In this document: positions 12,935-61,564 of the stretch, piece by piece
Position numbering within the stretch: position 1 is the stretch's first letter
Layout: every line of letters begins with the position of its first letter
NCBI RefSeq assembly: GCF_965363235.1
Contig: NC_134841.1
Location: forward strand, 34,005,440 to 34,069,439
Source of the DNA: Mytilus galloprovincialis
Lineage: Eukaryota > Mollusca > Bivalvia > Mytilida > Mytilidae
DNA length: 64,000 bases
Reading direction: 5' to 3'
Translations under genes and position numbers: made by a program
Notes under the pieces: model-generated
What the model was told of the DNA's origin: nothing
Databases searched by the model: none
What the model saw: the letters and a program-made list of their open reading frames with translations, nothing else

Positions 12935-13160
12935 AATGAAATTGAAAGGAAATTGGGAATGTGTCAAAGCGACAACAACCCGACCATAGACATGATAGAG
13001 CCGACAACAGCCGAAGGCCACCAATGGGTCTTCAATGTAGCGAGAATTCCCGCACCCGTAGGTGTCCTTCAGCTGGCCCCTAAACATATGTATACTAGTA
13101 CAGTGATAGTGGACGTCATACTAAACTCCGAATTATACACAAGAAACTAAAATTAAAAAT
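12935..13160 (-). mobile_element. Penelope-like element (PLE) 3' tail, solo fragment
   Basis: This ~225-bp sequence recurs at 20218-20420 (same orientation), and at 26685-26885 and 61195-61419 (opposite orientation). At 20.2 and 60.6 kb it is joined to reverse-transcriptase end sequence, which identifies it as the 3' untranslated end of a PLE. Shared words include GTGTCAAAGCGACAACAACC and GGACGTCATACTAAACTCCG. Copies end at a common 3' terminus (CAATTTTATT-like on the element strand) and differ in 5' truncation. Confidence 0.7.
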
Positions 13161-14594
13161 CCATGCTAAATGTGTATAGTAGTCGAGTATAAACTGACAA
13201 AAGGCTCTGAATTAAAAATGTGAAACTTTTCAAACGAAAAAAGTAACGGCATATTTAAAACAAAACAATTTATGAAAAACAAAAACAAAGCAAGCATACA
13301 TTGAGAAAAAACATTTGTATAACCTTATGACAGGATCCAAAACAGCACTTTGTTTTCATTGACATACGATATACCAAACTAAAATCAACCTAAATTGAGA
13401 CTCTGTTACTGTAATGATAGTATAATAATATTACATATAATATAAAAATATAGACCAAGTAAGTGGCTACACGGAGTAGAATGAGTTCTTGTAGTTTCGA
13501 TGTATCTGTATCGTTACGTCGAAGGTACCAATACTGGCTTTTGTATAATGTATATGTGCTTTAGATAGTTTATCGTGTTTCGGTATTTCAGTAGATACTG
13601 CAACATAAATCTAAATATTGCTACTTACCTGTTTTTTACCTGAAATAAACGTGCCTTACAGTAAACACACACAATGTATATGTTTACCTGTACAGGTAAA
13701 ATTAATCAATTAATTACATCCCGGAAGTGAAACTATCTGTGCTTGCCACAGTCTTGTTTGCTATTTTTAAACATGTTAAATTTAGTTATAATTGTGAACA
13801 TTTTATTAAAATAAAATTCTTTATTTTATTTGCAATACCGATTTTTAAACTTTTGCTGAATCACGCCTGGTAAACCATCTAATCTCAACCAACCAAATGG
13901 TTGAGACGGAAAAAAGTATTCTGGCACTTCCTGTTGAGCCTTTCTGGTTCGAAATATCCAAAATAAACACAGGGTAGGTCGACTTTTCGTCAATATACTG
14001 AAAATCGATGAGTTTTTTGTAAAATAGGAGAATGTCATGCCATAGATAATTGAACTAGAATTTGTTTCGTGTAAAACACGGACCAATACGATTTAAAATG
14101 ACATCGGAATGACTTTTCTCCTGCAGGTAAATGTGGCCAGTGCAGTCAGCTATTGACAAAATGACAGTGAAATCATTGATAAACAAACGTATATATCAGT
14201 AAATAAGTATTTTTCTAAAACCTTATAAACATAAAATTACAGTTTGCTCTTTTTCTTTACTAATATAATTTCATTAAGCTAAATATTTTATAAAGTAGAT
14301 CATGTTGAGATTTTCTGGTATCGGTTGAGATATTCTGGAACAATGTTGAGATCTTCTGGTGATTGAAATTTTTCAATTAGCTTAGTATCAATTATAGATA
14401 CAAATGTACAACGGCCAAAATTCATAAACTTGCAGTATATTGTTTGACATTTTAACTGTCATTTTAATCTTGTCTTTTTCAACTGTCATCGTGTCTGTAT
14501 AGTTATGACAGCAGCTTCTAAAGAGACCTTTGGTTGTAATAAAGTGAATACTAGTAGTGAATAGTGAAAAGCTGTGTTTTTTCTGTATTAAAGT

Positions 14595-20092: not shown

Positions 20093-20217
20093 TTGATATC
20101 TCATCACGAACTAGAGCTTAAAAAAGCAACAGACACATGCAGCTCCTCGTCTAATCTTATCTACCTCGAATTTGACTGCAAGGTTCATCTCAGTACAAGA
20201 CTCTATGATAAAATTGT
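20093..20217 (+). pseudogene. PLE reverse-transcriptase fragment
   Basis: The plus-strand frame reads LELKKATDT...LIYLEFDCKV...TRLYDKI, matching the region after the catalytic YxDD in Penelope-like reverse transcriptases (compare LELEKKDTTDT and LYDKRDEF in the copy at 41.4 kb). It stops where the inverted PLE tail at 20218 begins, so a second PLE inserted head-on into this older one. Confidence 0.55.
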
Positions 20218-21566
20218 GAAAGGAAATGGGGAATGTGTCAAAGCGACAACAACCCGACCATCGATGCAGACAACAGCCGAAGGCCACCAATGAGTCTTCA
20301 ATGTAGCGAGAATTCCCGCACCCGTAGGTGTCCTTCAGCTGGCCCCTAAAAATATGTATACTAGTACAGTGATAATGGACGTCATACTAAACTCCGAATT
20401 ATTCTCAAGAAACTAAAATTAAAAATCATACAAGACTAACAAAGGCCAGAGGCTCCTGACTTGGGACAGGCGCAAAATTGCGGCGGGGTTAAACATGTTT
20501 ATGAGATCTCAACCCTCCCCCTATACCTCTAGCCACTGTAGAAAAGTAAACGCATAACAATACGCACATTAAAATTCAGTTCAAGAGAAGTCCGAGTCCG
20601 ATGTCAAAAGATGTAACAAAAGAAAATAAATAAAATGACAATTTTACATAAATAACAACAGACTTCTAGCAGTTAACTGACATGCCAGCTCCAGACCTCA
20701 ATTAAACTGATTGAAAGATTACGTCTTCATCATATGAAAATCAGACACAATACCTCCCGTTAGAGGTTTAGTATCATACTATCATAAAATATATGAGAAG
20801 AACATAACCCGTGTCATGCCAATAACTGTTTTTTTTTAAATAAATGTGTTTAGTTCTGATACAAAGATCCTATAAGTGAATCAATATTAAAGCCAAAATA
20901 TGCAATCTTTAATTACCTGACAACAGGATCGTAACTATATCCCTTCATAATAAGTCTGTTTAAATGTTTTGTAAACTTTTGAGGTGAATACTAACATTTT
21001 TGTGCTTTGTAAAGAATATTACCATAAAAGATTGGATGTGAAATACCTGAACGTATAAGATGTCTGCATGTTGAGTTATATTTACGAATTATTTCCTTAT
21101 ACCGGTGATAAAATTTAGTAAATGTTTTGACCAGTTTGTGATATCGAAAACCCTGGTGTAATAGTTTTTCAGTAATACATAAATTTCTCTCGCTAAAATC
21201 TAATACGTTGTTACATACACGAGCGAATCGTACAAGTTGAGATATATAAACACCATAAGAAGGTGACAAGGGAACGTCACCATCTAAAAATGGATAATTA
21301 ACAATAGGAAATGAAAAATCATCTATTTTATCATAAATTTTTGTATTAAGCTTCTCGTTAATGATATAGATATCAAGATCGAGGAAAGGGCAGTGGTCAT
21401 TGTTAGTATTAGCTTTATTTAAAGTAAGTTCAACAGGATAAATTTCTTTAGTATACATACTGAAGTCGTCATTATTGAGAGCCAATATATCATCCAAATA
21501 TCTAAAAGTATTGTTAAATTTTTGTATCAAATGTTGTTTCGACGGGTCTTTGCTAATTTTAGTCAT
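20218..21566 (-). mobile_element. 5'-truncated Penelope-like retroelement
   Basis: On the minus strand, an open frame from 21566 to 20991 (191 codons) encodes the C-terminal half of a reverse transcriptase: FRYLDDILAL carries the catalytic YLDD, followed by CPFLDLDIYI, KIYDKIDDFSFPIVNYPFL and GVYISQLVRFARVC. An in-frame TAG at about 20990 is followed by a frame still reading SPQKFTKHLNRLI. Then comes about 460 bp of 3' UTR (20900-20440) and the family tail ending at 20218. The UTR and tail match 60650-61419. The GIY-YIG endonuclease expected downstream of a PLE reverse transcriptase is not seen, so it is not autonomous. Confidence 0.75.
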
Positions 21567-26684: not shown

Positions 26685-26885
26685 AAAATTCATCGGAGTT
26701 TAGTATGACGTCCATTATCACTGAACTAGTACACATATACTTGTTTAGGGGCCAGCTGAAGGACGCCTGCGGGTTCGGGAGATTCTCGTTACATTGAAGA
26801 CCCATTGGTAGCCTTCGTCTGTTGTCTGCTCTATGGCCGGGTTGCTTTCTCTTTGACACATTCCCCATTTCCATTCTCCATTTTA
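26685..26885 (+). mobile_element. PLE 3' tail, solo fragment
   Basis: Same ~200-bp sequence as at 61195-61419, in the same orientation: GTTTAGTATGACGTCCATTA, GGGGCCAGCTGAAGGAC and the terminal CCATTTCCATTC...ATTTTATTGT. More diverged than the other copies and lacking all coding sequence. Confidence 0.65.
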
Positions 26886-27528
26886 TTGTAATAACATTTC
26901 AACTAATAAGTTGTTAATCTCTTTGTTTCAATGCCAAATCATTAATATTGCAATTAATAAACCTTATAATCAGTAATCCTTCCATATGAAATAAAACTAG
27001 ATCACACGTCGACAAGTCAGCAACTTAACGACATTATAGGTTACACTTCTGTAAATATAGACAATACAATTTCCCATAGGAACTCCCTTTGTGGCTGAAA
27101 CTGCCACTTTCACTATGAAGTTTCGTAAAAAATTATATCATAGAAGACAAGTGTATATGCACTACTTTTTTTTTATCCAAAGGGCTGTGTCGCATATTTC
27201 GAGTTTAAACTTATAATAAAATTCTGTACTACTCTTACTTTAACTGAGGGTCTTCCTCGGGTTTCAATTTCTACCGCTACCATGTGTTTTTATACTGGTA
27301 ACGTTCCCATATTATGTCTCTTTGAGATCATGATTATTTTTTGAATAAGTTAACGCAATGCCAATGCACGAAACTTTTTATTGAGAGAAACCTACAACTA
27401 ACCCATTGACAAAATTATACAAAATGTGTATAACAGGTGTACACATCAAGTTTATCGAAATTTTACAATGTTTAATCACAATAACTTAATTATCATTTTA
27501 GGTATTCAAATAGAAATATATATTGACA
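26886..27528. other. Upstream region of the ZNFX1-like gene
   Basis: AT-rich. A splice-acceptor-like TATCATTTTAG ends at 27501, so the start codon at 27529 probably lies in an exon preceded by a 5' UTR intron. The upstream exon is not identified. Confidence 0.45.
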
Positions 27529-30500
27529 ATGGCTTCAAATAGACCAGAGAAAATACAACCTGTAGATTTTATAGAGGGATTATACAAGAAAAATATTAAG
27601 AGTGAAGAGCTATTAGAGATATTTGTAAAGAACATGCACATGTTTCAAAGTTCAATTTATGACAAGAAACTGTCTGACGATTCTTTATCGTCGCTTGTTC
27701 ATTTAATTGCAAGGGTTTGTGATTGTACAAAACAGAAAAGAAATCGAGAAATCTGTCAGCTGTTGAAAAGGCTGTCTGAATCACCGCTGTTTAAGAACCG
27801 AAGTATTACACTTCTTTTAGGGAAAACGCGCAATTACTCACGTGCACGTGATCATAGTGTTCAATGTTTATTATCCGATTACCGGGTACTTAACAATACT
27901 TCAGGAAATTTACCTCAGGATACCTCGTTTGTCTACAACGCCTCAAGTAAGGAGACTTGGGGAACATTTGAAAGAGCAAATAAGCGAATGTGATGATTTA
28001 GAAGACAAAGGGATGATGATAGACATTGTGATGGAAACGATGAAAGGAATTGGGCATATTGCTGGAGAAAGATCAAGAGCAAATCAAGACGCCGAAGATA
28101 AATTTGTGCCTCCAGATGATTTCCGAACTGTGTCAGTCATTCCTGAACAAAACGACATTCTAAACATTCTAAAGTTTCTCAGACGTAACAAAGTTTTCGG
28201 AAAGTATTTGAATTTAGATCATTATTTAGATGTACAGTTTAGATTGTACAGGGAAGACTGTGTATCACCTCTTCGAGATGCTCTCTTGGAATTCAAACAG
28301 AAAGATAAAGAAAATTGGAAAGAAAATATCAGATTAGAACATGGTCTACTCTACAAGAACGTAAAAGTAATGAAACAAATCATTTCTATAGACTCTGGTG
28401 AAGTATTTGAAATAAAACTGGACCCAGAACATCGTAAACGTATCAACTGGGGAAATGGAAAGAGACTTATTTATGGTACTTTATTGCTTGTTTCGTTTGA
28501 TCGTTTTAATTCAATTTTCTTTGCTATTGTAGCTGAAAGTGAAACGAAAATTTTACAAAAGAAAGGTAGCTTTACTGTACAGGTATTTAGATATGGAAAC
28601 AAACAAAAACTACCTAGAAATACAGATGGTATAATAATAGAATCAAATTCATCGTACTTTGAAGCATACAGACATGTATTAAAAGCTTTGCAGCAAATAA
28701 GAGAAGAAACGTCCCCTTTCACTAAATATCTTGTTCACTGTGAGAACGAGGTCCGTTTCCTATCGTACATTTCAAAACATCATGTATATGATCTCAGACC
28801 TGTTATCAAAAATTGCCGGATAGATCTAGACAACACTAATCGTAGAACTCTTAGAAATACTTTTCCGAAACAGACACCAATAAATATTGCAACTTTGTCT
28901 GAAGAAGACTGGCCGTCCACTGAGATGTTTGGAATGGACGAATCTCAGCGGAAAGCGTTTATTGCCGCACTTACAAAGGAATTTGTTCTCATACAAGGGC
29001 CACCAGGGACTGGTAAAACATACCTTGCATTGCAAATTGCCAAAACATTACTTCATAATACTAACAGGCTAAATATGAATTCCAAGGGTAAGGACGAGAA
29101 ATATACACGAAACGCTCGGAGGATTGCAACAAAGCCGTATATGTTAGTCGTATGTTATACAAACCACGCGTTGGATCAATTCGTTCAGGGGATTATTGAT
29201 TTTATGCCGGAAACTGCATTAGGTTCTAGCTACCCCGAAATTGTTCGATTTGGAAGTCGAAGTAAAAATCCCAAATTTGAAGAGCTTTCGATAAAAAACC
29301 TACGGAGTAGAGTTCGCTTGAAATCCCAATTTCCTCGAGATGAAGTACTTAAAGAAGCATCAAAAGCTAAAAGAAAAATAAAGGAGATTCGGGAAACTAT
29401 CGAGGCATTAAAGAGCAAAAATATTGTATTGTGGTTCGATGAAATAAAATGTGTTCTTACAAAAAAATTTGCGAGTCAATTTGGAGAAAAGTTTGTTTGG
29501 TTGCAGTGGCTGAATGTGTCAGAGCAGTCCTGGTATGAAGAAGTGAACAAGCACTATCAAAACCAACAAAATGACGAAGCAATAAAAAATCTACTCGGTG
29601 GTTTTGCAGCTAAGCTTGAAGCGGTCGAATTTGTTTCATTGATTTCGGAGAAAGAAACTGCATATAGCGTGCGGTACTTGGAGGTTGATGATGTTGACTT
29701 TTCGCTCAATACTAATACTATCGGTCTCGATCTGGACATGCAATACGAAAATGAGCTGCATAAAACAAATAAACTTGAAAAAAAGTGTAAATTAATTTTG
29801 CGTTTGGAAAAAGAGAAAGCGGCAAGGGAACTGCATTATGGTAAAGCCATGTCAGAAGGCCAAGTTAAAACAATTAAAAGTATCTGGACACTTTCCAAAA
29901 AAGATCGTTGGAAAGTGTATAGGTATTGGTTAATGCAGTATGTAAAGATACTTCACGAACAACTCCGCAAGAGTGAAAAAGAATTCCATGATATATTTGA
30001 TGACTACAGATATAACAGTATAGAAAAAGACGAAATTATCATGCAACAAGCAACAGTTTTAGCTATGACTACAACATCTGCAGCACGATATAGAGAATCC
30101 TTAAGCAAAGTTGGTCCTTTAATCACCATAATTGAAGAAGCAGCAGAAGTACCAGAGGCTCACATAGTAACAGCGATCAGCCCAAGATGTAAACATTTAA
30201 TTTTGATCGGGGACCATAAGCAATTGCAACCAAAACCTGCCGTGCATGAACTTGCCATTAAATTCAATTTGTCCGTTTCCTTGTTTGAACGAATGGTTAC
30301 GAACAACTTGAGCTACTATTGCCTTCAAAGACAACATCGAATGAGACCAGAGATTTCTGAACTGGTTCGCCACATATATCACACTCTAAATGACAACGAG
30401 AATGTAAATGAATATCCACCGGTAAATGGGATACGAAAGAGTGTGTTCTTTATCACACATAACAAAATTGAAGCTTTTAAGGATGAGGGGAGAAGTTTTT

Positions 30501-33500
30501 CAAACGAATATGAGGCTGAATATCTCAAAGAGCTTTACCTTTATCTGCTCAAGCAAAGATATGAACCCTCTGATATAACGATACTTACGGCTTATGCTGG
30601 GCAGATGTCCTGCTTAGAAGGAAAATTGCCAAGCTCAAAGTTCAAAGGAGTTAAAATTTGCGTGCTTGACAATTATCAAGGTGAAGAAAATGAAATCATT
30701 CTTTTATCATTAGTGCGTAGCAATACGACAGGTGATATCGGATTCCTAAATCGAGAAAATAGAATTTGCGTTGCTTTGTCTAGAGCAAAGCAAGGACTTT
30801 TCATAATAGGTAACAGTAATACATTAACAAAGAAATCTCAGCACTGGCAGACTGTTATTGGAAAACTACAAATTCAAGAGAATGTCAACGACATAAACGA
30901 AACATCCCCTGAATACCGAGCGATTGGAAAGGCGTTGCCATTGTACTGTCAAAATCACCCAAAGAAAAAAGGAATTCTCGCCGAGTCGCCTAGTGACTTC
31001 AAAAAAGTAAAAGATGGAGGTTGTGATCTGCCATGTGAATTTCGATTACTATGTGGACATGAGTGTCGATACGATTGCCATCCGTTTGACAAGGAACATA
31101 AAACATATAAATGCAAGAAACAATGTACACTGACTTGTGTAGAAGGACATAAATGTTTTAAGAGATGTCATTATGATGACGACTGTCGTTGCCGTGTAGA
31201 AATGAGACGCAAACTAAAATGCCATCATACAATTGTTCTTCAATGCCATGTTCACTATTCTAAATATCCATGCCATATTAAAGTAATTAAAACATTATTA
31301 TGTGGACATACCTTTTTAATGGAATGTCACGTGGACCCAAATACTGTTTCATGCAAAGTCTCTGTTGACAGAGAACTGGAGTGTGGACACACAGCACAGT
31401 TAAATTGTCATGTTGATCCAAACCAACACGAGTGTGCTATAGTCCTAACAGAAACAAGATCAAAGTGTGGTCATAAATTTGAACGCAGGTGTCATGATGC
31501 CAATCATGAAATTTTGAATAAGTGTAAAGTCTTGACAAATGAAAAACGAACATCGTGTGGCCATTTGATTGAACGGCATTGTTTCGACACCACATATGAA
31601 ATGCTTATAGACTGCAGCATTACCGTTACAATGAACAGGTCATCATGTGGTCACGAATATCAAAGGCAGTGTCATGACCGAATGTATGAGATGAGTCATA
31701 AATGCAATGATATTGTAACAGAACAATGGTCATCTTGTAAACATTACTACAAAAGACGTTGTTTTGACTCTGACTTTGTCATGAGGCACACTTGTCAAAT
31801 TAAAATTTTTGACAAAAGAAACGATTGTGGTCATGAGTTTGTAAGAACATGTTCAGATACGAATTATCAACATGACCACAAATGCTGCGTCTACGTTGAG
31901 AAAAATGTCCCACAGTGTGGCCATAAAGTAAAGCTTCCATGCCATCAAGATGTTTCTACGGTTAAATGTAGACAAATTGTTACAAAAGTTCTAGATTGCA
32001 ATCATTTCAATACATACGAATGTTTCAAAATAGATTCAATCAAATGTAATGTAAAATGCAATAAAATATGCATGAATGGCCACGTATGTACAAAAACATG
32101 TCATTTCTCTACTCCCTGTGACTGCCAAGAGCTTATACAAACAATTTTAGAGGTCTGTAAACATCAACAAAGTATCCCATGCTCAATCGATTCTAAAGTA
32201 TATCCTTGTAAAACAATGGTGAAGAAAGTGCTGAATAAATGCCACCATTTACAGAACATGGAGTGCCATATAGATCCACAAAGAGTGAGATGTAAATTTG
32301 AAGTCCTGAAGTCTTTACCTAAATGTGGACATGAGGAAATGGTTTTATGTTCAGAAAATCTTTTAGGCGTAAAATGTACCAAAGAAGTTGAAATAAAGTT
32401 AGATAAATGCGGACATTCAGTTGGAATTAAATGCTGGCAGAAAAAATATATGCCTTTAAAAGAAGTAAAATGTTTTGAGCCTACATTACACACGCGCTCT
32501 GATTGTGGACATATTACTACTATTCCATGTTGGAAAATACCAAGTCATAACTTTACTCCTTGTCAGAAACTATTAGAGACGACACTTTCATGTGGTCATG
32601 TCATTAAAAGCGTTTGCAGTGTGGAAGAAGAAAAAATATGTGATAACAAATGTGATAAACCATTGTCATGTGGACATCCATGCCCAGGACTATGTCATGA
32701 ATGTGATCATAACCAAGATTGCTCACGCCAGTGTGAAAGGGAACTTGTGTGTGGCCATGACTGTCCAAGTGAAGTTTGTATGATGTGCACTCAGTGTCAA
32801 AATTCTTGCTCATTTGCATGTTCACATTCGAAATGTCCTTCTCCATGCATTGATTCATGTACACCCTGCAAAGAAAACTGTTCCTGGGTATGTCAACATC
32901 ATAAATGTACAAAGTTATGCTTTGAAGAATGCAATCGCCAAAGATGTTGTAATGACTGTGATAAAACTTTGTCTTGTGGTCATCAATGTCCTGGTTACTG
33001 TGGTGAACCATGTCCACTGGAGTGTGCTAATTGTAAACCGGAAGTGTACGTATTAAAATATATTTGTATAGATGAAAAAATTGTAACAGTAGTACAATGT
33101 GGTCACTCTTTTGGCAGTATTTATCTTGATGAGTGTATGGATGAAATGAAAAACCACTTAGTGTCAAGATGCCCATGCTGCAGGGCAATTATTAGTTTTC
33201 ATCCAAGATATGAACGAATTTTGAAGAGGCAGAAAATTGCACTAGAAGATACGAAATTGAAAATTCGTAAAGTACGAGTTAATTCACAAACTATATACCC
33301 TGCGTGTGATGCTGGAATACTAACATCATTTGAACAGTATACAACAAGTATTGCAACATATCTTCACATTGTTCAGCATACGTGGCGTAAGCATGAATTT
33401 GATCAAGAATTCCATGACACCGAAAAATTGGCGCAATCCATTCTAGAAGATATTGAAACAACTCAAGCAACTTCATTTAAAACTTGCAAACAATTGTCAA

Positions 33501-33908
33501 AGAAAATATTCAGTTTGTATATCCAATGGATATTGTGCCTTTTCACGACAAAGCCAAAATTAATGGATACATTTTATACTTTCGATTGGTTTCGTGCACT
33601 GAAAGATTCTACAATTAATATTTCAAACAACTTTCACATCGAAAAGGTGGAGTCGATAGAACTTTATTTAGAAGATAATAATAGAACATCAATAGACATC
33701 AATGGTCATCGAACAATAAAAGGCCACGATATGGTTGTAATTGTACGCCGGTTGGAGAAACATTTAAATCTGGAACAGATTACTGAAATATTAAGACCTT
33801 TTATTGATGACATGGAGGACGATAGATTCTTGGCAAATACAAGAAGGTATCCCCAGTTACATAATGTGGTTGGCATACATAGCAGTGATTGGACAATATG
33901 TCCGAATG
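27529..33908 (+). CDS. ZNFX1-like: ZNFX1-like SF1 RNA helicase, main exon, with a frame break near its 5' end
   Basis: NFX1-type zinc-finger helicase. ZNFX1 is known as an antiviral dsRNA-binding helicase in vertebrates and a small-RNA inheritance factor in nematodes; the role here is inferred. The first ATG is at 27529. That frame runs to 27993, but the homologous frame from about 27821 on is +1 to it. Helicase motifs: GPPGTGKT at 28997-29020, TNHALDQF, IIEEAAE at about 30131, IGDHKQLQPK, RQHRMRPE, NYQGEENEIILLS, NRICVALSRAKQG. From about 30960 to 33020 follow some twenty Cys/His repeats of the form C-G-H-x6-C, then a RING-like CGHSF...CPCCRA. Splice donor G-GTAAGAA at 33908/33909. Read through, the frame ends at 33931 after KNSNSK. 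The break is a 1-bp frameshift or a missed short intron. Human ZNFX1 is about 1918 residues; this product would be about 2370. Confidence 0.85.
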
Positions 33909-34847
33909 GTAAGAATTCTAATAGTAAATAAACGTGTAAATGATAAACACATACATACAAAAGTAACCTAGTAAAAACAAACGATAATAATAAAAAGGTG
34001 TTCCATACTTTACCATAATTATGTTAAGATCAGAATCTTCACACATCTTCGTATTCTGAAAATAAATTTAGATGAGACACACAAATCATCGCCATCTATT
34101 TCAAATTCTTTAAAGGACCTGTTTCATGGTGGTCTGCTTAGACTAGGCCTTTCTTTAAAAAAAAAAGGTTCGATGTGCATCAAGTACGATAGACTCGTTG
34201 ATCATTGATCGATTATATTAGTTAATTGCTGGTGATTATATGCATTTTTCGTGCGATGTCATGCATTCCTGACGGACCAAATTGTGTTCGCTTAAATTGA
34301 TATGTTGCCATAATTCATATTCAATTAACAGATTACATTTAAATAATTTAAAGTGAAATACCACAGAACTGAAGAAAACAAATAGCATTTTCTGATCAAA
34401 GCGCTTTTGTATTTTCTATACTGATTTTAAACGGAAACTTTCAAATGATAATTTTTAGTATTGCCAACATTATATGTTAGTAATGTTATGTACCGGAAAT
34501 ACTTTTATGTACATTTCTTTACCTTATCCACATCACCATCTATGTTATGATTTTATACCGTTATATGTTGGTTTATATGTATGCTGGATGTTTTTTCTAT
34601 GTTTATAACTACATTTATGTTCCTCTAAGTTATTGTCTTTACGCAAATATTTGAATAAATAAATCCTAGAAGCTGTATTATAAATTAATGCTGTAAGTAA
34701 AATATATCTATTATTTATTTTTTTTATTTTTGCTTTTTCCAAAATTCCAAATTTCTGTGACTTTTATTTATTTATTCTTTATTTTTCTAATCTATTCAGA
34801 TTTATGGATCATTCTATATCGATAATGTATTAGTTGGATATAATATA
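33909..34847. other. 5' part of the ZNFX1-like last intron
   Basis: AT-rich intronic sequence with no recognised gene. The whole intron runs 33909-42571 and is mostly the DIRS-like element that starts at 34848. Confidence 0.55.
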
Positions 34848-34974
34848 TTCATTTCTTAATTTGGCGTATAAATATTCGCATACGCTTAAATCAGTAATTC
34901 GGTTTTCACACATATATATCTAGATTTCGCGCCTTTTCTCTTGTCGAGAACAAATTACTGATCAGTTCGACACG
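34848..34974 (+). repeat. DIRS terminal repeat A1
   Basis: 127 bp, repeated at 40475-40601 with about two differences (GGCGT/GACGT and GAACAAA/GAAAAAA). Both start TTCATTTCTTAATTTG and end AGTTCGACACG. Confidence 0.85.
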
Positions 34975-35808
34975 TATACTGACCTTGGTAATATTAGTGA
35001 ACCTGAACCGGAATCGCCTATACGAATTCAACGCAGTGAAGAACGTGAAGGGTCTACTCGATTTTCACCTGAGGATGCCTTATCGCTGTTTACCCAGAGC
35101 CTTGATTTGACATTGAGAAAGCACAAAGAAGAGCTATTTAAGGAGATTGACACGAGAATTGGTGCTAAAGAAGCTGAAAGTGTACCGCCGGTTAAACAGA
35201 CTCCCAAATTCAGGTACGACGGTAATGAAAAACAATTTAGTTTTAACGGAGAACGTTTATCAGAACTTGAAAAGACCCTCAAACTCATAGAGAAAGATTC
35301 TCCGGCTTTAGCCATTCAGTATTTAGAAAAGAGCATAAAGGCCCTAAAGGAACGAAATAAGCTTCTTCGCATAGCCGATAAGTACGGGTGGGACGTAGTG
35401 GACGAATATATAGACGACCCTATTACAGAGGGGACCGACGACGCAACAAAGCTAAGACAAGCCGATTTTCGGGCTAAAGCTAAGAGACGCGACAAAGTAA
35501 GGACCCGTCCTACTCCTTATATTCCAGAACCAGAGAGTTCCCAAGTTCCTCAAGATGAGCCTTTTCGAAAAACTTCATCAGCATCTACAAGAGAAGTACC
35601 TAGAAACTACAAATACCCGGCTGCTCAAGGATCACAAACCCGCACAGGACCTCGTACCGGTATCTACAACCAGAATGAGTACTTTACCAGTTCACAACCA
35701 ACAGACAGGTGTTATTACTGCAATGGCGAGGGTCACTGCGCCTATCACTGCCCAAAGAGACGTAGGTTCCAACCAGCCGAGACCAGTGGTTCTTCAGGAG
35801 CAAAGTGA
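34924..35808 (+). CDS. DIRS gag-like protein with CCHC zinc knuckle
   Basis: Frame open from after the TAG at 34921 to TGA at 35808. It has no ATG, so the start may be supplied by splicing or be lost. The product is charged and helical (KKHKEELF-, LEKTLKLIEK- and IKALKERNKLLR-type stretches), with a proline/arginine-rich middle and the knuckle CYYCNGEGHCAYHC near the end, which suggests RNA packaging. The last ~100 bp overlap the pol frame. Confidence 0.7.
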   Translation: MSRLFSCREQITDQFDTYTDLGNISEPEPESPIRIQRSEEREGSTRFSPEDALSLFTQSLDLTLRKHKEELFKEIDTRIGAKEAESVPPVKQTPKFRYDGNEKQFSFNGERLSELEKTLKLIEKDSPALAIQYLEKSIKALKERNKLLRIADKYGWDVVDEYIDDPITEGTDDATKLRQADFRAKAKRRDKVRTRPTPYIPEPESSQVPQDEPFRKTSSASTREVPRNYKYPAAQGSQTRTGPRTGIYNQNEYFTSSQPTDRCYYCNGEGHCAYHCPKRRRFQPAETSGSSGAK

Positions 35809-36059
35809 TGAAACAGTTAAGTACAATTTATCTCCTTTTTTAAGTCACGATCAAGATTTTGAATTTGAGTGCTCTTCAGCCAGCTCGTTTAGAGTAGATA
35901 ATTTACGGAGAAATTTAGATTTTTGGAGAAATACTTTAAATGCTAATAATTTTGTTCTTAATGTTGTCGAATTTGGATACCTGATACCTTTTTACAAATT
36001 GCCTCCGTCAGCTTTTTTAAAGAACAACAGTTCAGCTATAAAACACACACCTTTTGTTG

Positions 36060-36161
36060 CAACCAGCCGAGACCAGTGGTTCTTCAGGAGCAAAGTGATG
36101 AAACAGTTAAGTACAATTTATCTCCTTTTTTAAGTCACGATCAAGATTTTGAATTTGAGTG
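36060..36161 (+). repeat. 102-bp exact copy of upstream DIRS sequence at the LINE 5' junction
   Basis: 36060-36161 equals 35770-35871 without a mismatch. The first copy is in its natural place at the gag/pol overlap; the second is fused to the 5' end of the truncated LINE. See the findings. Confidence 0.85.
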
Positions 36162-36977
36162 TGAAATCATCCACATAACAAGAAAACATAAACCTATCAT
36201 CTATAACTACACATTACATAATCATATTCTAAAATCAACAAACAAAGCAAAATATCTTGGCGTTTCCATCACAAAAGACCTGACATGGAACTCTCATATA
36301 AATGACATCACAAACAAAGCAAACGCATCACTGAGATTTATTAAAAGAAATGTAAAAACAAACAGCATAAAAACAAAAGAACTGGCTTACAAAACATACG
36401 TAAGACCAAAAATAGAATACTGTAGTGTCATCTGGGACCCGTGGCAGAAACAACAAATAAATAAAATTGAAATGGTACAGAGAAGAGCTGCCAGGTATAC
36501 ACTCAACCAATACAGCTATCAAAGCAGTGTAACAGCCATGCTTGAACATCTAAGATGGCCAACATTACAACAAAGAAGAAATCTTGCATCCGTCACCATG
36601 CTATATAAAATCCAACACCAATTAGTCTCCATCCCAGTAAATACATACCTAATACCATCTAAGGAACATAAATTTATACAGCCATTCTCTCCCACAAACT
36701 ATCATTTATATTCATTTTTTCCTAGAACAATAAGGTTGTGGAATTCCCTACCATACCAAGTAGCCTGTAGCCCAGACTTAGAAGCGTTTAAGTCTGGTGC
36801 AAAACCACATATGTACTGCTAAACCAAACCATGTTTTTATCTATATACAAAAAAAATTAAAAAATAAATGTTTTTTGAAATTAATGTAAATATGTTTAGT
36901 TAATTTGTTTCCCTAGTATGTGCCTTCTTGTAATCTTCAACATATTGAAGTTAAGAAGTATTATGTAGATGTAGATG
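36162..36977 (+). mobile_element. 5'-truncated CR1/Jockey-type non-LTR retrotransposon
   Basis: Encodes the C-terminal part of a LINE reverse transcriptase to 36822: AKYLGVSITKDLTWNSHI, YKTYVRPKIEYCSVIWDP, EMVQRRAARYTLNQY and FFPRTIRLWNSLPYQV. These lie downstream of the polymerase core, so the piece is not functional. A short 3' UTR ends in (GTAGAT)n at 36965-36976, a typical LINE tail. DIRS coding sequence resumes at 36978. Confidence 0.8.
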
Positions 36978-38810
36978 TCGTCAATTATAGATTTATTGTC
37001 AACAGGTGTGATTCGTGAGGTGAAAGATCACATTCCTTTTATCGTTAATCCGTTATCGGTGTCAGTTAACGACTCAGGTAAAAAGAGATTGATTTTGGAC
37101 TTGAGGCACGTTAATAAGTTTAATGAAAAAAGAAAGTTTAAATACGAAGGTGTAGCTGAGGCTTTGCAATTTGTATCAAATCCAGGATTTCTGATAAAAT
37201 TTGATTTAAAGTGTGGTTATCATCATATTAATATACACGAAGAGCATCAAGAGTTTTTAGGTTTTTGTTGGGTTTTCCCAACCGGCACTCGGTATTTCGT
37301 TTTTAGGTGTTTACCGTTTGGTTTATCTACAGCTGGTCACGTGTTTTCTTAAGTGTTGAGGCCACTAGTTAAGCACTGGAGATCACAAGGTTATCGTATG
37401 ATCATATATTTAGATGATGGTTGGGGGATTGAGTCCTCTTTTGAGGATTGTGTGAAGCTTTCTAAGGTCGTAAAGCATGATTTATTGTCAGCAGGTTTTT
37501 TCCTGAATCATGAAAAAAGTATTTGGGACCCCACAAAAGTTTTAACTTGGCTTGGGTTCCGATGGCATTTAGACACTTTTAATTTAGAGATACCTGAAGA
37601 TAAGATTGAGCGTTTCAAAGCTACTATAGACGATATTTTTAGCAATATCAATAATATAACCGCTAGACAATTAGCACGAGTTACTGGCAAGATTATTTCT
37701 TTTATTCCCAGTTTTGGTAACATTTGCAGAATAATGTCCAGGAATATGCTCATTCTTATCGCCGCTAGCGATTATTGGGATTTTCATATTCGGTTAACCG
37801 ACGAAGCAATCTTTGAATTAAACTTTTGGAAGAATAATTGCACATCACTCCCCAGGAAATCTCTCTTACCAGTTTCATTTCTGCCAGATAGAATTGTCTT
37901 TACTGACGCAAGCGGTTTCGCTTGTGCGGGGTTTGCGGTTCAAACGTCAAATAAAGTTGTACATAAAATGTGGACTCCCGACGAGGCGAAGAAAAGCTCT
38001 ACATTCCGAGAACTGTTAGCAGTATTCATAACCTTATTTTCCTTATTGCCCGACTTTCAAAATCGTTTGGTAAAAATTTATACAGACAATCAAAATGTAG
38101 TTAAAATTGTGCAGGCTGGGAGCATGAGAACAGAATTACAAGAAATCGCTTTGAAAATTTTTAATCTATGTATTCGCAATTGCATATCACTTGAAGTAGA
38201 ATGGGTCCCCCGGGAGCTTAACACTACTGCAGATTTTTACAGTAAACTGTTTGACTTTAATGACTGGTATGTGAATGATGTGTATTTCAAGTACTTTAAT
38301 TCTTTATGGGGTCCGTTCGATTGCGATGTTTTTGCCGACTATAACAATCACAAATTACCCATTTTCTTTTCGGCGTATTTGTGTCCAGATACAAGTGGTG
38401 TTGATGCTTTCGGGTTTTCGTGGAATACTTATAACTGTTGGTTAGTTCCTCCCGTTCACCTTGTAGGTAGAGCATTAAATCATATGTTAATTTGTAAAGG
38501 AAAGGGTACTATCGTTGTTCCGAAATGGACTTCGTCATGTTTTTGGCCTTTATTGTTGTCATCATCGAGCAACCAATACAAATCTTTTGTAAAGGATTTT
38601 GTAGAGTATGTTAAACCATCTGGATTTTTTTGTCAAGGTTCGGATAAAAACAGCATTTTTATTCATTCTCCATTAACTTTCAACGTTCTCGTATTAAAGA
38701 TTGATTGTAGTTAATCTGTAAGTATATCACTCAATATCCATTTATATATTTATTTATTTTTTATTAGTTTTATTTGTATTTTTTGTCTGTGTTATACTAG
38801 TAGTTTGAGA

Positions 38811-39368
38811 CCAATCCCGTTTTGGCATAGTAGTTATATAAAATTATTTTGCGACACGCACTTAAGCTTGTTGAGCATATTTAGAATTGGAGTTGCATTT
38901 AATACGCATTATATCAGATATGGAATCGTTTATACTGTCGTTTGCACTTACTAAAGTCCCGTTTGGGCATAACCTTGGTTTATTTAATATATTCTATTTT
39001 GTTTCAGAGATAAGTCCCGATTGGGCCCTCTCATATGCATATGTGAGTCCCGTCTTGGGCATTATATTGATTTATTATTTGTTCTTAATGAAGAGATAAG
39101 TCCCGTTTGGGCCCTCTAACACATTAACACAAGTCCCGTTTGGGCATTGTATTGTTTTACTTTTGAAGAGATAAGTCCCGATTGGGCATTTAGCACGCAT
39201 ACACTGAAGTCTCGTTTGAGCATTATTCTGTTTTATTTTGTTCGTTTCGATTCGACAGAGATAAGTCCCGCTTGGGCCTCTAGCACGCATGACTTATTTC
39301 CCCTTCGGGCGTCTAGGTATTTTATCATGTATTGTTGAATTTTATAAAGGACATAATCCCGTTTTGGT
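38811..39368 (+). repeat. Array of about eleven short hairpins, consensus AGTCCCGTTTGGGC
   Basis: Copies at 38813, 38955, 39013, 39046, 39099, 39132, 39174, 39208, 39264, 39297 and 39355. The CCC/GGG stem is kept while loops read GTTT, GATT, GTCTT or GCTT. At 39208 the stem is CTC/GAG, a paired change. The array lies in non-coding sequence between the two DIRS coding regions, probably in an intron ending at the acceptor at 39540. Confidence 0.8.
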
Positions 39369-39540
39369 ACTCGCAAAATGCCATTTAGTTTTAATGTTGT
39401 TCTATTTTATCTTAACATATTTAGTTCTTTAGTATACTTTTAAATCAAAATTGAGAGAATTTGAAATAATTCTTTTACATATAGTGCTTCGCTATATGAA
39501 TTTTTAAATCAAATTAATTTCATTTAAATTTATTTTTCAG

Positions 39541-40550
39541 TTTAGATTCAAACATTCACATTGGGAATCCTTAAAGCATTTTTCTAATCCTGATCTGAAA
39601 GCTCTAACAGTTTCTTTATGTTCAGTAGTAACTGCTTCAAAAAGCGAAAATACTTTGAAGAAATATAAAGGATATTTCAAAAGATTCAAATACTGGTGCT
39701 TAAAGTACAATCTACCGTTTTTGCCTACCACTGTTTGTACAGTTGCTATATATCTTAACTATTTGATTCAATCTGGAGTTTCCACTGCCGTTTTAAACGC
39801 AGCGTATTATTCAATTAAGTGGGAACATGATCTGAATTTATATGACAGTATTTTAAATGACAAATTACTAGACATGGTATTAGAAGGTGGTATAAGATTG
39901 TTATCTAAACCTTTGAAAAGGAAAGAACCCATTACCCCTACGATTTTGAAGAGTATTATTGCAAAATTCGACAAAAATGACAATTTGCCAGGATTGCGAA
40001 TCTGTGCTATGATGTTGATAGGGTTTTCCGGATTTTTAAGATACGATGAGTTGGCACACATCCGATCTTCTGATTTAACGTTCAACGATTCTCATCTACA
40101 AATAAACATTCAAAAAAGTAAGACCGATAGATATCGACAGGGTAACACTATTTTGATTTCTAGAACTGGTACAGACCTTTGTCCAGTTTCTATGCTTCAG
40201 AAATATTTTCGCGTTTCTAGTTTGTCAGTTGGGAGTGACGATTACATTTTCAGAGCTCTATCATACTTCAAATCTATTGATAAGCATAAACTAGCTTGCA
40301 AGAATAGGCCTCTATCTTACACTCGAACTAGGGAATTATTTTAAATGCGATTTCTGAAATAGGCCTGAATAGTTCTTTATTTGGTTTACATAGTTTAAGG
40401 AGCGGTGGTGCTACAGCAGCTGCTAGTAATTCTGTTCCCGACAGGCTTTTGAGTATAGCGAAGAAGAACATAAATTCATTTCTTAATTTGACGTATAAAT
40501 ATTCGCATACGCTTAAATCAGTAATTCGGTTTTCACACATATATATCTAG
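39541..40550 (+). pseudogene. DIRS tyrosine recombinase, frameshifted near its end
   Basis: Begins after a strong acceptor (TTTATTTTTCAG, 39529-39540), with an open frame and no nearby ATG, so it was probably spliced from an upstream exon. It reads KYKGYFKRFKYWCLKYNL, then the first catalytic arginine in FLRYDELAHIRSSD. That frame stops at 40342. One base over, the frame continues LNAISEIGLNSSLFGLHSLR-SGG with the H-x-x-R pair, and a candidate tyrosine in LTYKYSHT, to TAG at 40548-40550. A lost T in the run at about 40336-40339 explains the break. Confidence 0.8.
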
Positions 40551-40601
40551 ATTTCGCGCCTTTTCTCTTGTCGAGAAAAAATTACTGATCAGTTCGACAC
40601 G
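40451..40601 (+). repeat. DIRS repeats B1 and A2, adjacent
   Basis: B1 (40451-40474, GAGTATAGCGAAGAAGAACA...) abuts A2 (40475-40601). Both overlap the end of the recombinase coding frame. Confidence 0.8.
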
Positions 40602-40837
40602 GATATTTTGCATTCACGATATGTAATTGCAGTTATATCTTTTTCTGATTGAACATTTTTATATTTGTAGAATTCCTTCCATTGTTCGGAGACCCAGAGA
40701 CCACGATTTACATGATTTACATGACCAGAGTTGTCACAATTTATTTCTATTATTTATTAAACTGATCAGTACAATTTCTCATCCCAAATTGCTTTTGTTT
40801 TATTTACGTATTATTAAGACAATTTTTATGTTCGTAT

Positions 40838-40861
40838 GAGTATAGCGAAGAAGAACATAAA
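40838..40861 (+). repeat. DIRS repeat B2, 3' end of the element
   Basis: 24 bp identical to B1. About 236 bp of unique sequence separates it from A2, longer than in a textbook B1-A2-B2 layout. Confidence 0.7.
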
Positions 40862-56804: not shown

Positions 56805-59800
56805 TTATTTCAACCCAAAATCCTTTAAATGCGATGGTTCTTTTCTTATTCTCTTCGGATAGCGTGGTTCCATTTGTTCAGTCATGTTTGACGGTTTCTC
56901 GATTTGCGGTTGTTCGGTCTCAGGAGTACTTATCGGTATAGTTATTTCTGGCTCAAACAAATCACTGTCATTGTCACATTTTTCTTCATTTTCGTTGTTT
57001 TTGCAATCGAAGTTTCGTACTCTGATGTGGTCAATATGTCTACGAATGACACGTCCATCTTGCAATTTAATATGAAATGAAAGTGGTCCTGATTGTTTTA
57101 TAACTTCTCCTGGAATCCATTTAATCTTTGAACCAATTGCGAAATTTCCAGCAAATACCATCTGTCCTACATTAATTTGTCTGTTCACAGATTTCTTATC
57201 GTGATAATGTTTCTGTTTTTGTTGTCTCTCCTGAATTCGATTCTCGATATTTGGAAACACTAAATCTAGACGTGACTTGAGTTTCCTTTTCATTAGCAAT
57301 TCTGACGGTGCCAGTCCTGTCGTTGTTTGTGGCGTAATACGGTAGTTGAAAAGAAAACGGTTCAACTTTTCCTGGATAGTTCCTTCTTTGATTTTCTTCA
57401 TTCCTTCTTTGAAACTCTGAACTGCTCGTTCAGCACAACCATTACTAGCTGGATGCCACGGCGCGGAAGTGCGATGTTCAATTCCATTTGATTTTACATA
57501 ATCGGTGAATTCCTTACTAGTAAATGCGGCTCCATTATCACTAATAATGAGATCACATAATCCATGTGTTGCAAACGTTTGTTGAAGTTTTGCAATCGTA
57601 GCTTCGGATGTTGTAGAATTCATAACGTGTATGTCTATCCATTTTGAATACGCATCAACCATAATTAGAAATGATTTGTTCATAAATGGTCCTGCAAAGT
57701 CTATGTGTATTCTTGACCACGGATGGCTCGGATATTCCCACGGATGTAACGGCGCTTCTGCTGGTAACTTGCGGTTTTCCTGACAACTGTAACAATTAAC
57801 TACAGTTAATTCCAAGTCATTGTCCATTCCCGGCCACCATATATAGCTTCTTGCTAGACTTTTCATTCTAGTAATCCCTGGATGTCCTTGGTGTAATTCA
57901 TTTAACATGGCTTCACGTCCTGGTTGTGGTATGATTACTCTTCCTCCCCACAATATGCATCCGTCCTGACTACACAGTTCATTTTTTCTGCTATAATACT
58001 GTTTTATGTCTTCACTGGGACATTTTGACGGCCATCCATTCAAAATGTATCTAAGCACCATAGACAGTATTGTGTCCTTGCGTGTCCACTTTTGAATTTG
58101 TTTAGCATCAACTGGCGTAGTGCCTAAATGTTCCATTAATAATATAGTATCACCTGGCGTTGGTGTCTTTTCAATGTTTGTTTTCAGCGGTAGTCTACTT
58201 AGTCCATCCGCATTACCATTCAAACTCCCTTCTTTGTATACAATCGTGTACTCATATGCAGCTAAAGTCAGTGCCCACCTTTGAATTCGAGATGCGGCCA
58301 TTGTAGGTATAGGTTTATCTTCTCGAAATAAACCTATGAGCGGCTTGTGATCGGTTATGATTGTAACGGGGTGTCCATACAAATATTGATGAAATTTCTT
58401 GATACCAAATATTATGGCCAGACTCTCCTTCTCAAGAACGGAATAATTCTTCTCTGCTGATGTAAGTGTTCGAGATGTATAAGCTATTGGTTTGTCGCTG
58501 CCGTCGTCCATTTTATGCGAAAGTACGGCGCCTAATCCATATGGTGATGCATCACATGCTAAAATTAATTTCTTTTTCGGATCGAAATGTACAAGTACTG
58601 ATGCGGATTTCAACAGCTGTTTTGACTCTATGAACGTTTTTTCCTGTTCTTTTTCCCAACTCCATTTTGTGTCTTTCTGTAGAAGTACATGTAGCGGCTT
58701 TAACAAGTGAGATAAATTCGCTAAGAATCTATTGTAATAGTTCATCATTCCAAGATAAGCTTTCAGTTCTGTCACGTTTGTCGGACTTGGTGCTTTATCG
58801 ATCGCCTCAACTTTACTTTCCACTGGATATATTCCGTGTTTGTTTATTTTAAATCCCAAATAAACAACTTCTTCGGCCATGAACACACACTTCTGTTTCT
58901 TTAACCGAATTCCGATTCTCTTAAATCTAGACAATACCTCAGAAAGAGTATTAAGATGTTCCTCCCTTGTTTTACCCGTTATCAGTATATCATCTACTCG
59001 AACCAAAACATTGGCTATACCTTGAACAACATTTTCAAGTGTTCTTTGGAAAATACCTGGGCTGGACGCTACACCATACGGAAGTCTATTGTATCTGAAT
59101 AAACCCTTATGCGTGTTTATAGTCACATACCTCTTACTGTCCTCATCAAGTTCAATCTGTTGATATGCTTGATTTAAATCCAATTTTGTATATTCTTGTC
59201 CTCCTCCAAGCGTTGCGTATAAATCCTCTGTTTTAGGAATAGGATAATTATCCAACTTTGAAACGGCATTAACGGTTACCTTGTAGTCACCACAAATTCT
59301 AATAGATCCGTTCTCCTTAACTACAGGTACTATCGGAGCGGCCCAGTCGGAAAATTCCACTTGCTGAATCTGACCCTCCTTCTCAAGACGTTCAAGTTCC
59401 ATCTCCACTTTATCCTTCAACGCATACGGCAAAGGGCGAGCCTTGAAATATTTCGGTACGGCACTCTCATCAACATAAATTTTGGCTTTCATGCCTTTTA
59501 CAGTTCCAAGTTTATCTTTGAAAACCTCCTTATTTACTTCCAAGATCACATTCAAATCACTCGATTGATTATCACTTCCAACGACGGAGAAAATATCCTT
59601 CCAATCCAGTTGGAGTTTGTTCAACCAGTCTCGGCCAAGTAAATTCGGACCTTTACGCTTCACTATCAGTAACGGTAATTCTGCGCTTTCCTTTTTGTAA
59701 TTGACATTGACGATTGCACGTCCTATTACAGGAATCTGCTCTCCCATGTATGTTCGGAGTTTAGCACTTGTCGGTTCGATTCTGAATTTCGACTTGTATT

Positions 59801-60618
59801 CCTTGTAAGTATCCTCGCTCATGATAGAAACTGACGCTCCGGTATCTATTTTCATGGCTATTTCACATTCATTTACATTGATTTGCACTTTGTATGCCTC
59901 ATTAGATTTATTTCCAAAATGAAAAACTGAGTAAACTTCATTTTCAATTTCACTACTTTCATCCTGCTCCATGAAATGAGCACGTGGTTTAAAACGTGAT
60001 TTAAACTCTCTGTGATTTTCACTAAAATTCCCATTGGCAGATTTGTTACGGCATTTCTTTGCGATATGTCCTTTCTTTTTACAACTGTCGCATTTTGCAT
60101 CCTTAAACCTGCATTCAGCGGCTAAGTGATTTCCTCCACACCGGTAACAATCTCCTTGTTTCGAATTTCCAGAGTTGTTTCTTGTATATGATTTTGAAAC
60201 TTTGTTGATTTGTTTCTGAAATGTTCCATTTGTCCCACTCGCTTGGATGTCCTGTGTATTCTTCTCTGCAGTCTCCATAGCGGTAGCAATTTCCAATGCC
60301 TTTTCAAATGTTAAATTCGGCTCTGCTAACAGTCTCCTCTGTATGCGGTCACTCTTTATCCCGACGACTAACCTGTCACGTAACATCGCGTTTAACGTGT
60401 CACCATAATTACAGTGTTCTGTCAGACTTCTTAGTGCTGCAATAAATGTCCTCACTGACTCATCGCTGTGTCTTGTCCTACTGTTAAATTTAAATCTCTG
60501 AATGATTTCTGATGGTACTGGATCTCGGTGGTCCTTCACTAGTTTTGTTAAATCGGCCAGTGATTTCGTTCCTGGTTTGGCTGGTGCTAATAAATCCCTT
60601 ATTAATTTGTAGGTATTC
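56805..60618 (-). CDS. Gypsy gag-pol polyprotein, main part
   Basis: Uninterrupted from the PLE junction to the stop. In order: gag C-terminus with two zinc knuckles (CYRCGGNHLAAEC, CDSCKKKGHIAKKC), aspartic protease (MKIDTGASVSIMS), reverse transcriptase (YTKLDLNQAYQQIEL, RYNRLPYGVASSPGIFQ, RVDDILI), RNase H (LACDASPYGLGAVLSHK, ITDHKPL), integrase zinc-binding HH-CC (HQGHPGITRMKSLARSYIWW, CYSCQ), DDE core (IHIDFAG, LIISDNGAAFTS, an FKEGMKKIKEG helix) and a basic C-terminal region. The residue before V-D-D is Arg where Tyr or Phe is usual. The first 14 nt of the downstream open frame (60632-60619) belong to the PLE. Confidence 0.92.
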
Positions 60619-61419
60619 TTTATAAAGCACAAAAATGTCAGTATTCTCCTCAGAAACTAACAAAACCTTTAAATAGACTTATTAAAAGGGGATATAGTTA
60701 CGATACTGTTGTCAGGTCATTAAAGATTGCATATTTTGGCTTTAACATTGATTCACTGATAGGGTCTTTGCATCGGAACTAAACACATTTATTTCTAAAA
60801 AAACAGTTGTTGGCATAACACGGGTTATGTTCTTCTCATATATTTTATGATAGTATGATACTAAACCCCTAACGGGAGGGATTGTACCTGATATTCATAT
60901 GATGAAGACATAATCTTTCAATCAGTTTAATTGAGGTCTGGAGCTGGCATGTCAGTTAACTGCTAGTAGTCTGTTGTTATTTATGTATTATTGTCATTTT
61001 ATTTATTTTCTTTTGTTACATCTTTTGACATCAGACTCGGACTTCTCTTGAACTGAATTTTAATGTGCGTATTGTTATTCTTTTACTTTTCTACATTGGC
61101 TAGAGGTATAGGGGGAGGGTTGAGATCTCATAAACATGTTTAACCCCGCCGCAATTTTGCGCCTGTCCCAAGTCAGGAGCCTCTGGCCTTTGTTAGTCTT
61201 GTATGATTTTAAATTTTAGTTTCTTGTGTATAATTCGGAGTTTAGTATGACGTCCATTATCACTGTACTATTATGCATATTTTAGGGGCCAGCTGAAGGA
61301 CACCTACGGGTGCGGGAATTCTCGCTACATTGAAGACCCATTGGTTGCCTTCGGCTGTTGTTTGCTCTATGGTCGGGTGGTTGTCGCTTTGACATATTCA
61401 CCATTTCCTTTCTCAATTT
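60619..61419 (+). mobile_element. 5'-truncated PLE inserted in Gypsy gag
   Basis: About 801 bp: the last ~45 codons of the PLE reverse-transcriptase frame (KAQKCQYSPQKL-type, LIKRGYSYDTVVRSLK), 3' UTR and family tail. TATTC at 60614-60618 and 61420-61424 is a putative target-site duplication. The same segment is at 20218-21000 reversed. It lies opposite in strand to the Gypsy coding sequence. Confidence 0.85.
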
Positions 61420-61420
61420 T

Positions 61421-61564
61421 ATTCCCACATACACTTAAGAAAATATCCCTTTTCTGGTCTTCTTCGTCTATCTCATTAGCATTAAAATAATGTTCCATAC
61501 GTTCTACATATTGTGTCCAATCTTCGGATTCATCAAAAGAGTCTAATTTCCCGTAAGTCGGCAT
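61421..61564 (-). pseudogene. Gypsy gag N-terminus, separated by the PLE
   Basis: ATG at 61564-61562, reading MPTYGKLDSFDESEDWTQYV and continuing to FLSVCGN at the PLE junction. Removing the PLE and one TATTC leaves the gag frame continuous with the main part, so the interruption is precise. Confidence 0.85.

Follow-up and report, generated by a model that had tools for sequence, protein, structure and literature searches.

Little is understood of how an inserting LINE becomes attached to the chromosome at its 5' end. The original analysis of the extra nucleotides at ZfL2-2 junctions is reportedly that of Kajikawa 2012 (Gene). In the zebrafish elements ZfL2-1 and ZfL2-2, the "EX" junctions of the annealing pathway carry extra sequence derived from the flank, lying between the upstream target and the LINE (PMC4245944, PMC4760211, PMC2666801), and according to the account in PMC4245944 flanking sequence is the source of a large share of the extra nucleotides at the 5' ends of ZfL2-2 inserts. 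Template jumping has been credited with a large proportion of such extras, on unpublished data cited in PMC2666801, and a review suggests that a DNA polymerase might make LINE 5' extra nucleotides (PMC4760211). When linear group II introns retrohome in Drosophila, the cDNA end is joined to the upstream target, the extra nucleotides are sometimes copied from neighbouring sequence, and there is a strong dependence on Pol theta (PMC3280974). The order target, copy of upstream target, element is also described for 5' junctions of R1 and R2 (PMC2718515), and LINE chimeras formed by double template switching consist of a LINE 3' part with other sequence fused at its 5' end (PMC2104539).

Here we describe a putatively CR1-like LINE inserted into a DIRS-like retrotransposon in the window, by which we mean the whole 64,000-nucleotide stretch of Mytilus galloprovincialis DNA that was analysed. 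The insertion is a clear and, in our judgement, rather long example of an already described junction type, flank-derived LINE 5' extras. ZfL2 extras usually show overlaps of 1-2 bases, and the window has 2-nt TG and GT overlaps; the ZfL2 extras, however, are "several" nucleotides long and come from cell-culture inserts, whereas here 102 nt were added from 188 bp away in a natural genomic copy. Group II introns are another type of element (PMC3280974), the R1 additions are 16-27 nt long, lie on full-length elements and are given a transcript-flank origin (PMC2718515), in contrast to 102 nt on a truncated LINE, and the double template-switch chimeras join copies of different RNAs (PMC2104539), whereas the partner in the window is the insertion target itself. 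Since the host is itself repeated, a single genome supplies the empty site, the native LINE sequence and the likely donor, and the locus is a well-resolved case of a long, locally templated 5' addition. Being one event of a described kind, it carries the weight of a good case rather than that of a new principle.

Anatomy of the insertion

The features of the locus, all on the plus strand, are as follows:

34843..40861, +, DIRS-like retrotransposon copy interrupted by the LINE (edges from alignment of other copies; weak domain matches)
34843..34978, +, A1 terminal repeat (A2 at 40470-40605)
35770..35871, +, X1, native DIRS sequence and putative template (identical to 36060-36161; same context in other DIRS copies)
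35872..36059, +, native DIRS sequence, 188 bp from template to insertion point (continuous with X1 in L030-L035)
36060..36161, +, X2, probable templated filler at the LINE 5' end (TG at 36160-36161 common to filler and LINE)
36160..36978, +, 5'-truncated, putatively CR1-like LINE with the end of its long frame, 3' UTR and (ATGTAG)n tail (genome matches; tail repeat)
36977..40861, +, downstream DIRS remainder (restarts at native GTCGTCAATT, one A lost)

When the window is compared with itself, X2 and X1 are identical at 102/102 positions, which bears out the original prediction of a perfect 102-nt copy at the LINE 5' junction; the window contains no N. A repeat search of the window lists the pair as a direct repeat of 106 nt at 99% with a spacing of 290, because GTT also pairs on the left side and is followed by one mismatch. 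In BLAST of the window against itself this 106-nt pair has E = 2e-47, and the repeat is therefore not due to chance. Zero differences over 102 sites place the divergence between X1 and X2 below about 2.9% (95% limit). X1 is followed by CTCTTCAGCC and X2 by the LINE sequence TGAAATCATC. The earlier description of the first copy as running on into its normal sequence holds, whereas the second is not simply followed by LINE, the two sharing a 2-nt TG overlap, and the distance from the first copy to the insertion point, given before as 189 bp, is 188 bp (insertion point 36059). The upstream seam (36056-36063) happens to form a perfect 8-base palindrome, GTTG|CAAC, which is likely to be a chance occurrence.

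The inserted LINE

A search of the window's own genome (1.385 Gb) with the LINE fragment gave at least 46 matching rows with the best 40 of 156 candidates scored, and a shorter LINE query gave at least 44 with the best 40 of 107 candidates scored; both figures include the window row and count several pieces of one copy separately. The copies have a common 3' end and differ in their point of 5' truncation. Among the 16 junctions of the looser comparison described below, most copies have 3' ends of the (ATGTAG)n type; L020 and L021 align only up to an earlier 3' point, and L015 has extra sequence beyond the tail. Since the tail repeat, the varying 5' truncation and the GT overlap at the 3' junction all fit target-primed reverse transcription, the LINE can be taken to have inserted in this way, and its earlier recognition as a LINE insertion stands.

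The Pfam search gave no match for the LINE fragment of the window, and for a longer copy (L011) it found one long frame with RVT_1 (2.8e-36) and Exo_endo_phos_2 (2.5e-09), plus a PHD match (5.9e-05) whose 23.4 bits lie just below the cut-off of 24. The PHD finger is a domain reportedly linked with CR1-like LINEs. Searches of viral contigs with the LINE protein and with the DIRS reverse transcriptase gave no relatives. In a minus-strand copy, L042, the 5' flank beyond position 482 resembles the upstream reverse transcriptase region of the same LINE when compared by eye with L020, which suggests an internal deletion of the LINE.

The host element and its empty site

DIRS-like retrotransposons encode reverse transcriptase, RNase H and a tyrosine recombinase, and those of PAT-like type end in split direct repeats, A1 ... 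B1-A2-B2. In the host element the RNase H match RVT_3 exceeds its Pfam cut-off (22.4 bits, cut-off 21.6); RT_RNaseH (23.5 bits, cut-off 24.8) and RVT_1 (0.0018) fall under theirs, Phage_integrase is weak (E 0.0034, 17.6 bits against a cut-off of 27.1), and there is a weak Dam-like match. The A1 ... B1-A2-B2 termini are present, consisting in the window of A1 and A2, which are identical at 132/136 positions (4 differences), together with a 25-nt remnant of B1 and B2, where other DIRS copies have a B1 repeat of about 100 nt ahead of A2. The 5' edge lies at about 34839-34847, where the alignment of other copies ends, and the 3' edge at about 40861, as in L036 and in the many genome rows that finish at query 661-663.

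Some further details of the host may be recorded here. At 40450-40474 the window copy retains 25 nt of the B1 of about 100 nt, and about 138 bp before B1 are missing, judging from row positions (e.g. C14, C11). Of 59 genome rows, 21 span the A2-B2 segment alone (query 268-275 to 651-680, about 392 bp; window 40470-40861); these are perhaps the product expected of A1/A2 recombination, which would make them the DIRS counterpart of solo LTRs. At 38945-39290, in the interval that separates the frames for RNase H and recombinase, lie repeats of about 75-90 nt that have diverged but keep a recurring AAGTCCCGxTTGGGC core.

A 360-bp query (35700-36059) gave 11 matches in the genome, with all 10 candidates scored, and eight DIRS-like elements besides that of the window carry this sequence (L037 and L039 belonging to a single element). 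In L030-L035, six of the eight, the DIRS sequence continues across the site on both sides and contains neither the LINE nor a second copy of X; L036 is without the target region, and divergence and rearrangement obscure the site in L037/L039. The uninterrupted target site TTGTTGAGTCGTC is found in 4/6 copies, with one-base variants in the remaining two: L030, L031, L032 and L033 read TTGTTGAGTCGTCAATT, the empty-site form being GTTGAGTCGTC, L035 reads GAGTCATC, and L034 reads GAGTTGTC, with a few differing bases upstream. A search for a LINE match or a second X in the eight other DIRS elements found none. The comparison with an empty site that had been proposed for an allele was thereby made on other DIRS copies of the same genome, and yielded six empty sites without LINE or X2.

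Junctions

In the window the order is TTGTTG, X2, LINE, GTCGTCAATT. At the boundary between X2 and the LINE, other LINE copies (L004, L005 and L008) read GACAAATG|TGAAATC, and L006 has the same last ten bases, while native DIRS sequence at the same point reads GAGTG|CTC; the TG at 36160-36161 belongs to both LINE and DIRS sequence, and the boundary is therefore a 2-nt overlap. At the boundary between LINE and target, GT is common to the (ATGTAG)n tail and to GTCGTC, so that G36977-T36978 can be assigned to either, and the LINE end formerly set at 36977 is corrected accordingly. The left junction, between target and X2, has GTTG against GTTC and is without a perfect overlap. Overlaps of 2 nt such as TG and GT are too short to carry weight.

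If the shared GT is assigned to the target, comparison with the empty site shows that one A was lost at the insertion site and nothing was duplicated. A target-site duplication was considered as the source of the repeat and rejected, given the 1-bp loss, the 188 bp that separate X1 from the insertion point, and the presence of GTCGTC, not X, after the LINE 3' end; the empty-site comparison confirms the original prediction on this point. Target-site duplication is not a requirement for LINE insertion, which also leaves blunt or truncated sites (PMC2666801).

Origin of the additional sequence

The extra bases at the LINE 5' junction match the flank of the insertion and are missing from both the empty site and the LINE copies. 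X was absent from all seven of the other LINE loci in which it was sought together with 1.5-kb flanks. In four of these seven, read in LINE orientation, LINE-like sequence abuts the breakpoint upstream (10 bases in L006, longer in L004, L005 and L008). When 20 long LINE loci were compared with the window, the leftmost matches of more than 300 bp began at 36158-36160, outside X2. With up to 3 mismatches allowed, a 28-base sequence spanning the X/LINE junction has a single match in the 1.385 Gb of the genome; its reversed control has none. The possibility that the 102 nt are the LINE's own sequence was accordingly rejected, on their absence from 7/7 loci and the uniqueness of the junction, and the earlier view that they are foreign to the LINE is upheld.

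As for the donor, X1 of the window differs from X2 at no position, L030 and L032 at 1 each, L035 at 2, L031, L033 and L034 at 3 each (L033 over 101 aligned bases), L036 at 4, and L037 and L039 at 14 over 99 bases. Because X1 has 0 changes and each of the nine other X-bearing rows (eight DIRS elements) has at least one, none being equal to X2, the DIRS copy of the window is the best-matching donor. The T in TTTTTTAAG is found only in the window and in L030 among the compared copies, and L030 is altered elsewhere in X. The donor call nevertheless rests on few sites, L030 and L032 being one base off each.

Recurrence at other LINE junctions

In a strict scan, 27 LINE 5' junctions, that of the window and 26 more, were examined for an exact repeat on either strand, within 1 kb upstream and ending no more than 5 nt from the junction; five of the 20 long loci (L011, L018, L024, L025 and L026) were omitted, their 5' end not being clear. 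The window reached 60 nt, the maximum length of the scan, and 0/60 random positions did as well. L028 has a flush repeat of 10 nt, equalled at 3/60 random positions, and L041, L046 and L049 have 9 nt, equalled at 8, 11 and 14 of 60. At 22 of the 26 other junctions there was no flush exact local repeat of at least 9 nt, and at none of the 26 one of more than 10 nt; the locally derived 5' additions that the original prediction had proposed to look for in other copies were thus not found in this form. Since the window alone of 27 junctions exceeds 10 nt, long exact local fillers look rare in this LINE family (1/27 scanned).

A looser scan of 16 junctions (the window and 15 others) allowed mismatches and took in the whole stretch. 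It gave 20-21 nt at 95% in L009, 8 nt from the junction and within a diverged repeat array, an inverted 18-nt perfect match in L013 ending 10 nt from the junction, an inverted 30-nt match at 90% in L020 ending 22 nt away, and 48 nt at 92% in L022 ending 52 nt away; L012, L015, L016 and L017 have diverged local repeats near the junction. These may be short or altered local fillers, or old flanking repeats.

How the insertion may have arisen

We consider it highly probable that a single event produced this structure, with X2 copied as a filler from the same locus, whether the template was DNA or RNA. The LINE would have nicked the DIRS element at A|GTCGTC on the bottom strand and begun reverse transcription there on its (AUGUAG)n tail, possibly via the GT overlap. 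Synthesis would then have halted inside the long reading frame, leaving a 5' truncation. The nascent end, perhaps with the help of pairing over the 2 nt TG, would have transferred to a point 188 bp upstream of the break, on the sense strand of the DIRS copy that had been hit. There 102 nt would have been copied, from 35871 back to 35770, before the upstream junction closed; a last transfer would have brought the end to TTTTGTTG, where the upstream side was broken, and the seam would have been sealed. If it was the cDNA (bottom) strand that was extended, its end could have formed a TG pairing on the top strand at 35870-35871; extension of the top strand would have had to start from a mismatched terminal base (GTTG on GTTC), and seems less likely.

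Template switching is the most economical cause, although a host polymerase acting in locally templated end joining also fits. Thus, the original prediction of a template jump during target-primed reverse transcription is supported as to the kind of event, whereas the part of the LINE's own enzyme and a preference for DIRS RNA over DNA are not established. Against the single event we count that 102 nt is long compared with the published "several" nucleotides, that the 26 other junctions are without a comparable addition, and that the left junction has no perfect overlap.

We would rank local DNA, e.g. a resected 3' overhang, first among the templates, ahead of RNA of the window copy, since the donor that matches X2 best is the insertion target. 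For resected DNA to have served, at least 290 nt of the upstream strand would have to be exposed. That the upstream end was indeed resected this far, and that the LINE reverse transcriptase or a host polymerase then copied about 100 nt of the target strand so laid bare and only afterwards joined the ends, is a tentative proposal; if it is true, LINE insertion can generate sizeable dispersed local duplications through DNA-templated synthesis.

The same anatomy would result if the template was DIRS RNA, i.e. a transcript of the window copy or a similar one. LINE chimeras attributed to double RNA template switching are published (PMC2104539), X lies in the sense of the DIRS frames, as it would in a transcript, and an end-to-end jump requires no homology, which fits the left junction. 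However, the donor that matches best lies in the element that received the LINE, 188 bp from the break, and random capture of RNA would be expected to yield another transcript more often, unless the RNA was nascent at the locus, so that we regard an RNA template as doubtful.

One may also consider two successive events, a 290-bp tandem duplication (35770-36059) followed by a LINE insertion that removed the last 188 bp of the second unit and one base more. Long target-site truncations do exist at LINE insertions (PMC2666801), but the right end of the duplication (36059) and the LINE nick, one base further on, would have to fall by chance within about 1 bp of each other, and the duplication is found in 0/8 other DIRS elements; such a history is improbable. 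Still more so is an assembly artefact in which the second copy is a misjoin, for although the host element is repetitive, the window is without N, the second copy ends at a LINE junction, and that junction occurs nowhere else in the assembly. Finally, that a LINE fused to X elsewhere was transcribed as a chimeric RNA and retrotransposed into this locus is barely credible, despite R1 insertions whose upstream 28S sequence is ascribed to a transcript flank (PMC2718515), since a LINE truncated within its long frame does not have X as its native 5' flank, the window locus is the sole place where the X/LINE junction was found (a source locus could have been lost), and it would take a coincidence for such a chimera to land in an element that holds this X, 188 bp from it.

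The fused reading frame

An open frame joining DIRS and LINE residues, described earlier at 36076-36822, does exist (35962-36822 from stop to stop), but significance for it finds no support. Its first in-frame ATG, at 36472, lies inside LINE sequence. Since the spacing of 290 does not divide by 3, the DIRS frame that runs through X1 continues into X2 in another frame and meets a stop at 36133; given this stop and the difference in frame, the fusion frame is no continuation of the DIRS gene. A fusion gene was therefore rejected, and the fused frame looks incidental, with no function proposed for it.

Other features of the window

Outside the DIRS-like element, 27821-33931 is a single open frame of 2036 aa with ZNFX1, AAA_11 and AAA_12 domains. 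On the minus strand, 56805-60656 is an uninterrupted frame of 1283 aa with protease, reverse transcriptase, RNase H and integrase matches in a Gypsy-like order. An inverted pair of 811 bp at 93.7% identity lies at 20208-21018 and 60614-61422, with partial copies at 12935-13161 and 26693-26887.
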